Position numbers and translations under genes: made by a program. A stretch of DNA of 64,000 nucleotides from Lumbricus rubellus. Its lineage: Eukaryota; Annelida; Clitellata; Crassiclitellata; Lumbricidae. A model generated the notes under the pieces. The model had not been told where the DNA came from, ran no database searches, and saw only the letters and a program-made list of their open reading frames with translations. Where the stretch lies: positions 28,423,143 to 28,487,142 of the forward strand of contig OX243816.1 in assembly GCA_945859605.1 (NCBI GenBank). Reading direction: 5' to 3'. Shown piece by piece: positions 392-1,280 of the stretch; positions within the stretch are counted from its first letter, which is position 1; each line of letters begins with the position of its first letter.

Positions 392-1280
392 ATTGATTGT
401 TTTCCAGAGGACGTATGATTGATTGTTTTGCAGAGGACATATGATTGATTGTTTTGCAGAGGACGTATGATTGATTGTTTTGCAGAGGACGTATGATTGA
501 TTGTTTTGCAGAGGACGTATGATTGATTGTTTTGCAGAGGACGTATAATTGATTGTTTTGCAGAGGACGTATGATTGATTGTTTTGCAGAGGACGTATGA
601 TTGATTGTTTTGCAGAGGACGTATGATTGATTGTTTTGCAGAGGACGTATGATTGATTGTTTTGCAGAGGACGTATGATTGATTGTTTTGCAGAGGACGT
701 ATGATTGATTGTTTTGCAGAGGACGTATGATTGATTGTTTTGCAGAGGACGTATGATTGATTGTTTTGCAGAGGACGTATGATTGATTGTTTTGCAGAGG
801 ACGTATGATTGATTGTTTTGCAGAGGACGTATGATTGATTGTTTTGCAGAGGACGTATGATTGATTGTTTTGCAGAGGACGTATGATTGATTGTTTTGCA
901 GAGGACGTATGATTGATTGTTTTGCAGAAGACGTATGATTGATTTTTTTGCAGAGGACGTAACATTGATTGTTTTGCAGAGGACGTATGATTGATTGTTT
1001 TGCAGAGGACGTATGATTGATTGTTTTGCAGAGGACGTATGATTGATTGTTTTGCAGAGGACGTATGATTGATTGTTTTGCAGAGGACGTATGATTGATT
1101 GTTTTCCAGAGGACGTATGATTGATTGTTTTGCAGAGGACATATGATTGATTGTTTTGCAGAGGAGGTATGATTGATTGTTTTCCAGAGGACGTATGATT
1201 GATTGTTTTGCAGAGAACGTATGATTGATTGTTTTGCAGAGGACGTATGATTGATTGTTTTGCAGAGGACGTATGATTGT
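392..1280 (+). repeat. 26-bp minisatellite of duplicated 3' splice sites, 34 copies
   Basis: Thirty-four units follow each other at exactly 26 bp. The AG dinucleotides sit at 407, 433 and every 26 bp on to 1265, with no indels. Each unit contains TTGAT (a branch-point-like match), a short TTGTTTT tract, GCAG, then AGGACGTATGATTG. The last copy is the actual intron/exon junction of the first sestrin exon in the window: after AGGACGTATGATTG the sequence departs from the repeat into conserved sestrin coding sequence. A few copies carry single changes, for example CCAG for GCAG near 405, 1107 and 1187. The minus strand is open in all three frames only because the unit lacks stops in that direction. 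Confidence 0.97.

Follow-up and report, generated by a model that had tools for sequence, protein, structure and literature searches.

Mirages, minisatellite-like duplications of an intron's 3′ end together with the 5′ portion of the exon that follows, were described in lancelet globin genes (PMC3087553). In the same account the units at Adh3 are 10-72 bp long, length and somatic instability are cited, and the data suggest that mirages do not interfere with regular splicing (PMC3087553). BflGb6 carries 6 and 3 mirage units in its two haplotypes (PMC3087553), and troponin C and PGBD5 have been added to the mirage genes (PMC3902484). Within the literature searched, which covers subscription journals thinly, structures under that name are confined to lancelets.

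The array described here lies in a stress-response gene, a sestrin, of the earthworm Lumbricus rubellus and resembles mirages in several respects. Each unit runs from an intron 3′ end into the beginning of the following exon, as judged from sequence, reading frame and homology. The copies carry splice signals, and the unit length overlaps the Adh3 range. It differs from the lancelet mirages, as far as these are described in the cited accounts, in its host, in its 34 indel-free units and in the occurrence of acceptor arrays at three further genes. Mirage splicing was checked by RT-PCR in lancelets; at the sestrin array it is predicted from sequence. By analogy, we regard it as a mirage-type structure in another phylum, with many more units than either BflGb6 haplotype.

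Other systems share part of this organization. The 6-16/IFI6 gene reportedly contains a minisatellite of 12-bp units that multiplies one splice signal. Both arrays thus multiply a single splice signal of their gene, the donor in 6-16/IFI6 and the acceptor in sestrin. In the potato RdRp gene, an intron was gained by a tandem duplication across the intron 1/exon 2 boundary; the duplicate brings a branch site, a pyrimidine tract and a 3′ splice site, and the new donor came from the exonic part (PMC4974935). The sestrin duplication likewise crosses a boundary, but RdRp, as reported, shows a duplication with a new intron and sestrin a 34-copy array. The UBC polyubiquitin gene has an array of dual-specific AGGT splice sites that delimit the ubiquitin monomers (PMC10809524). 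Sestrin is similar in that one gene carries many alternative splice sites in tandem, and dissimilar in that its consensus unit has AGAGG and no AGGT. Finally, minisatellites are found inside other lumbricid genes, namely in intron 1 of the metallothionein genes of earthworms (PMC12783039). As described, those arrays are internal to the intron, whereas the sestrin array crosses a splice junction.

Structure of the sestrin array

The window, that is, the whole 64,000-nt stretch of DNA analysed (G000:C6:28423143-28487142 of a 787-Mb assembly), contains 34 head-to-tail units of 26 bp on the forward strand (392-1275). The mitochondrial COX1 of this assembly has 96% identity to that of Eisenia nordenskioldi and 94% to that of an Amynthas, a result that points to a lumbricid-like earthworm. 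An initial annotation had described 34 tandem copies without an indel, and this is borne out: the units keep an exact 26-bp register with 0 indels, 24 of them are identical to the consensus ATTGATTGTTTTGCAGAGGACGTATG, and the other ten carry variants. The consensus falls into ATTGATTGTTTTGCAG, which has the look of an intron end, and AGGACGTATG, which has the look of an exon start. Across the copies, the first part resembles an intron end, for example ATTGATTGTTTT(G/C)CAG, and the next 10 bases resemble an exon. The annotation had set the limits of the array at 392 and 1280. The start stands; the array proper stops at 1275, or at 1279 if the partial next copy ATTG (1276..1279, forward strand) is counted. 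These four bases lie inside the exon, they also open every unit, and the duplication probably started from them. Directly 5′ of the array is a single-copy intron tail, GTAAGTTGTTTTTGTT (376..391, forward strand), so that the pyrimidine-rich stretch of copy 1 is the longest of all. The branch-point-like TTGAT noted in the annotation is present in each of the 34 copies, its A lying at 396 in copy 1 (forward strand) and recurring every 26 bp. That A sits at intron position -12, close to its own AG, and its role is putative.

The array stands out from its surroundings. With up to 3 mismatches allowed, the window contains 34 matches to the consensus unit, whereas all 100 dinucleotide-shuffled versions contain 0. 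The array also has the top TRF score among the 84 window rows (1692; next 552). The exact unit is matched in the 787-Mb genome solely at the sestrin array (24 matches, such counts being lower bounds for repeats). A viral or prokaryotic source was considered and rejected, a 41-base piece having 0 exact matches in viral_contigs and genome_contigs. Folding of six copies gave no RNA structure that stands out (z -0.43). On the minus strand of 392-1275, the consensus unit lacks a stop codon in all three antisense frames, probably by chance. Elsewhere in the window, 16660-21694 has no tandem repeat row in TRF, and minisatellites of 31 bp and 30 bp, with GGTTAGG-like or CCTAACC-like motifs, are located at 63844-63986 and 50999-51113.

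The copies are highly uniform. Mean pairwise identity among the 34 is 97.35%, and AG, TTTT and TTGAT are each intact in all of them. Copies 7-20 are identical to one another, a run of 14, which agrees with the annotation's suggestion that an indel-free array reflects recent expansion or homogenization. In lancelet mirages the copies are evened out within a cluster and diverge more at its borders; here the variant copies are 1, 2, 6, 21, 22 and 28-32, while copies 33-34 have the consensus sequence. Variants common to copies 1-2 and 28-29 suggest later block copying. Of the distinct changes between copies, 2 fall within the 16 intronic positions and 7 within the 10 exonic ones (binomial P 0.020); counting the adjacent exonic changes of copy 22 as a single event raises P to ~0.04 (calculated by hand).

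Tandem repeats are error-prone in assembly, and the array, or just its number of copies, could be an artefact. Set against this, the array, at 884 bp, is small relative to long reads, ten of its copies differ from the consensus, and three other loci of the assembly have acceptor arrays that end at an exon. Of all the explanations weighed here, we give this one the least credence.

The sestrin gene and the position of the junction

Past the last copy, the sequence runs on as ATTGTCTGGTGACAGCATTC, the beginning of a 174-nt sestrin exon (1266..1439, forward strand; RTYDCLVTAFLQNNRLENLFQVMAYHPQYLECFLRTQQYLMRGDGPLPFTYRHYIAIM) whose first 14 bases recur throughout the array. Together with the next exon (3223..3405), it matches Pfam PA26 (E 9.9e-51) and sestrin-2 structures (E ~1e-33), so that the continuation of the last copy into sestrin coding sequence, already proposed in the initial annotation, is confirmed. 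Further exons were placed by homology on the same strand at 5270..5506, 6635..6779, 7993..8251 and 8826..9051, and the last coding exon, which ends RAITRYMT*, at 9744..9830; the exon at 3223..3405 was likewise assigned by homology. All seven exons inside the window join in frame, and the predicted protein has 53-54% identity to its best relatives among the matches listed. Pieces of an Alg9-like mannosyltransferase (Glyco_transf_22) are found farther along the forward strand of the window, at ~14.3-14.7 kb and ~19.0-19.4 kb.

Two upstream exons of the gene lie outside the window. The preceding exon, NRAVEIPHKRYMGVSYFIPSSE, is 66 nt long (window coordinates -1734 to -1669) and has a phase 0 donor; its best tblastn match, to Biomphalaria, has an E-value of 0.009. 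An exon still farther upstream is matched at E 3.5e-14. The acceptor in the last copy, attgattgttttgcag/AGG (1250..1265, forward strand; slashes mark splice junctions), is the predicted used site, and its phase 0 agrees with that of the upstream donor. The intron from the donor at -1669 to the acceptor at 1265 is predicted to be 2934 nt. We also rejected a candidate first exon, 298-375, whose donor would be GTAAGT at 375: it implies an ancestral intron of 32 nt, and a homologous phase 0 exon was found farther upstream.

Several lines of evidence place the start of the exon at the array. Codon 2 is T in 86 of 120 aligned relatives, and of 20000 random stop-free 24-mers drawn from the window, 98.8% match the family less well than codons 1-8 do. 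In Tribolium, two N-terminal forms are identical from codon 2 onward in the part shown and different before it. The sestrin paralogue on contig C1 opens the same exon at codon 2, on a codon boundary (tttgctgtttgattgatgcag/GCT). From the alignment of relatives, the Tribolium and C1 junctions and the phase of the upstream donor, the exon is predicted to start at 1266 or no more than one codon away. Frame and homology in turn support the annotation's reading of the unit as a sestrin 3′ splice site with the first 14 exon bases, of which 10 lie in the unit and the remainder is the ATTG.

The true acceptor could instead lie downstream, at 1290 or 1301, which would make the array plain intron sequence. 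Codons 1-8 (RTYDCLVT, 1266-1289) are poorly conserved in the window gene, outscored by every relative scored except 2, and they depart from the conserved start of the exon, e.g., at position 8, which is D or E in 114/120 relatives. The well conserved block begins at AFLQ. This poor fit and these departures leave room for another acceptor. In addition, relatives have about nine VPVDTxDE-like residues preceding codon 1, and a search of the intron for a microexon encoding them (one motif, lengths of 15-72 nt) found none, so the join to the upstream exon is putative. The downstream candidates themselves are poor. The AG at 1289..1290 (forward strand), which the initial annotation had named as a possible alternative, is in phase 1 and scores -0.91; since the upstream donor is in phase 0, that concern is weakened, and we reject 1290 as the true acceptor. 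The AG at 1300..1301 (forward strand) is in phase 0, scores -0.38 and would delete the conserved AFLQ, the F of which is kept in 118/120 relatives. Taken together, a downstream acceptor appears quite improbable.

Acceptor strength and the predicted consequences of upstream splicing

Acceptors and donors were scored with generic weight matrices, not fitted to earthworms. On this scale all 34 copies score 3.31-6.20 as acceptors, next to 1.93-4.67 for the six other sestrin acceptors, in keeping with the earlier view that every copy is acceptor-like. For comparison, the median is 4.47 for the top-scoring AGs at 26 chaperonin exon starts, chosen for scores of at least 1.8. Copy 1 scores highest (6.20), and the last and most other copies score 3.95. 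Outside the array, five AGs in the same intron score at least 3.3, so that an acceptor score is no evidence of use.

The initial annotation pointed out that 26 is not a multiple of 3 and that use of an upstream copy would add a stop codon. Read in the sestrin frame (phase 0), all 33 upstream acceptors do lead to a stop within five codons.

The consensus unit also has a GT five bases past its AG, which raises the question of tiny introns or intron seeds. Following the first splice, an exonic donor GAC/GTATGA and a later acceptor could remove pieces of the array. The donor of the potato RdRp intron offers a precedent, having come from a duplicated exonic part (PMC4974935). The sestrin candidate, however, scores -1.48, below all six sestrin donors (-0.47 to 8.22). 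An intron of a single unit would be 21 nt long, and each such event would leave 5 nt behind and shift the frame. We hold this explanation to be very improbable.

Arrays in the sestrin paralogues

Sestrin matches were found at four gene loci of the genome, on contigs C6 (the window), C1, C3 and C21. The C21 gene has its own array at the homologous junction, with 53-bp units and 9 acceptors (G000:C21 region 19584000-19614000 reversed, positions 8071-8535). The acceptors are spaced 53, 51, 53, 53, 53, 53, 53 and 55 bp apart, and each is followed by the exon start GA(C/A)G. The last of them, gtgttttttccgtag/GACGAGACG, scores 4.80, as against -1.20 to 0.07 for the eight upstream. The C1 gene has no repeat that spans the homologous junction, and in the C3 gene the start of the homologous exon is uncertain. 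An additional 15 kb of sequence did not reveal N-terminal exons for either the C1 or the C21 gene. The C1 sestrin exon has upstream of it a 141-bp repeat of 11.9 copies with a 99% match (G000:C1 region 64294000-64313000 reversed, 3815-5496).

An ancestral array common to the C6 and C21 genes appears unlikely, because the two paralogues have only ~55% identity over the aligned pieces and their units differ in length (26 vs. 53 bp). Both units do hold a GACGTRTGATT-like stretch, which leaves a common ancestral array conceivable. We checked 24 sestrin-family exon starts, those of the paralogues being taken as the starts of tblastn matches and that of C3 being uncertain. Arrays occur at 2 of the 4 homologous junctions and at 0 of the 20 other exon starts; near one of these 20, on C21, lies an array of 18-bp units (4.2 copies) that stops inside the intron. 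The probability that both arrays fall in the homologous class is ~0.003 (calculated by hand), or ~0.05 without the window array, which prompted the search.

Acceptor arrays at other genes

Two further genes have acceptor arrays. In the gene for eIF3m, a core translation factor, thirteen acceptors spaced 45 to 53 bp apart (46-bp unit) end at the last exon (G000:C1:46715148-46715748; L092, L077; last exon matched in PDB at E 6.6e-15). The last acceptor is again the strongest, scoring 4.05 vs. 2.89. The sequence that follows the AGs, TGAGACAGGATG, is only loosely like the exon start, TCGTGAGGACGAAGG, so the boundary itself may not be the repeated unit there. In a GRXCR-like gene, nine acceptors with a 46-bp unit end at the GRXCR1/2 C-terminal exon (G000:C2:534628-535063; L093, L079; PF23733, E 3.1e-13). 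This unit clearly takes in the exon start (AAAGTGCAGCAT and on). Of its eight upstream acceptors, two would insert an open stretch in frame, five would run into a stop at the ninth codon and one would change the frame. With the two sestrin genes, acceptor arrays have been seen at four genes.

Both genes came from a survey of the genome for acceptor-like repeats. Three TTTGCAG motifs at 16-46 bp spacing gave 521 matches, compared with 1515 for the reversed pattern, and the stricter pattern TTTTGCAG gave 105 compared with 685. Thus, neither pattern shows a genome-wide excess of acceptor-like repeats over its reverse. The TTTGCAG matches listed reach contig C5, and 100 of the 105 matches to the stricter pattern were listed, in 16 loci. 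We picked 24 arrays by eye for study of the 3′ flank. Fourteen of them coincide with these 16 loci; the two remaining loci are the sestrin array itself and C1:4187159, which was left out. Eleven of the 24 flanks had an open frame and were scanned with Pfam, and the other 13 were judged by open frames alone; 2 of the 24 arrays, those of eIF3m and the GRXCR-like gene, adjoin an exon with a Pfam match above the cut-off. At G000:C5:14068228-14068599 (flank L098), a long array of 13-bp TTTTGCAGTTCTG units runs towards a possible serine-protease exon that lacks Pfam support.

Chaperonin genes served as a comparison set. The 38 exon starts fetched, out of 48 matches, had no array of five or more copies and one 8-bp repeat of 2.5 copies; 26 of them have an AG scoring at least 1.8 near the match start. 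Minisatellites (units of 15-100 bp, at least five copies) make up 2.8% of the 213 kb examined, both sestrin arrays included.

Proposed origin and likely function

Probably, although with some room for doubt, the array is a minisatellite built from 34 repeats of a predicted sestrin 3′ splice site and exon start, with the last copy likely used and the other 33 acting as decoys. A simple route to such a structure can be proposed. An ATTG in the intron would have lain 26 bp before the ATTG of the exon, the two flanking the original junction, and slippage or unequal exchange between them would have duplicated the whole junction. The unit starts with ATTG and the exon ATTG directly follows the last unit, so an exchange of this kind would copy exactly the piece observed. 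Further exchange may then have multiplied the copies and evened them out.

In splicing, exon definition would favour the acceptor copy closest to the 174-nt exon with its 5′ splice site. Minor splicing to upstream copies would meet the early stop codons, and nonsense-mediated decay should remove the resulting mRNA. Against use of the last copy is the fact that copy 1 is both the strongest and the most upstream acceptor, and a first-AG or proximity rule could favour it. That a core translation factor such as eIF3m carries acceptor copies makes the avoidance of decoys likely. Our best reading is one of recurrent junction-duplicating mutation, with decoys that are predicted to be mostly ignored and the copy nearest the exon probably winning.

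The array could also act on expression as a dial or a sink, the proposal of the initial annotation. The acceptor copies would compete for splicing factors, and a share of the sestrin mRNA that depends on copy number would be sent to decay. All copies are acceptor-like, every upstream one gives a stop, and a second sestrin gene has its own array at the homologous junction. The rarity of changes in the intronic part of the unit is a weak hint that the acceptor part has been kept, a hint that fades when the copy 22 neighbours are counted as one event. However, the eIF3m and GRXCR-like arrays suggest a general mutational process, and in the C21 gene the upstream acceptors are weak, so that no pressure for strong decoys is seen there. 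The arrays of C21 sestrin, eIF3m and the GRXCR-like gene, along with the splicing-neutral mirages reported from lancelets, favour a tolerated recurrent structure over a sestrin-specific regulator. A dial or sink is accordingly unlikely in our estimation. Its core idea, a possible effect of copy number on sestrin output, is the most interesting one raised by the locus.

The recurrent, mostly ignored decoys of our preferred reading may be part of something broader. The arrays may belong to a class of acceptor minisatellites in earthworms that recurs at ordinary and essential genes, including both sestrins, in which splicing picks the exon-nearest of up to dozens of nearly identical acceptors and the number of decoys in sestrin tunes its mRNA. 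In this full form the proposal is speculative and rather doubtful.

Choice among neighbouring, equally strong 3′ splice sites has mostly been studied with few engineered copies. The earthworm arrays are a natural test of acceptor choice, with 34 near-identical sites at sestrin, 13 at eIF3m and two sets of 9 at other genes. The first-AG, proximity and exon-definition rules predict opposite and easily read outcomes at these sites. What is new here is that acceptor arrays recur in an earthworm genome. If mirages turn out to be widespread in earthworms, new introns, cryptic splicing and hypervariable loci would arise from them outside lancelets as well.
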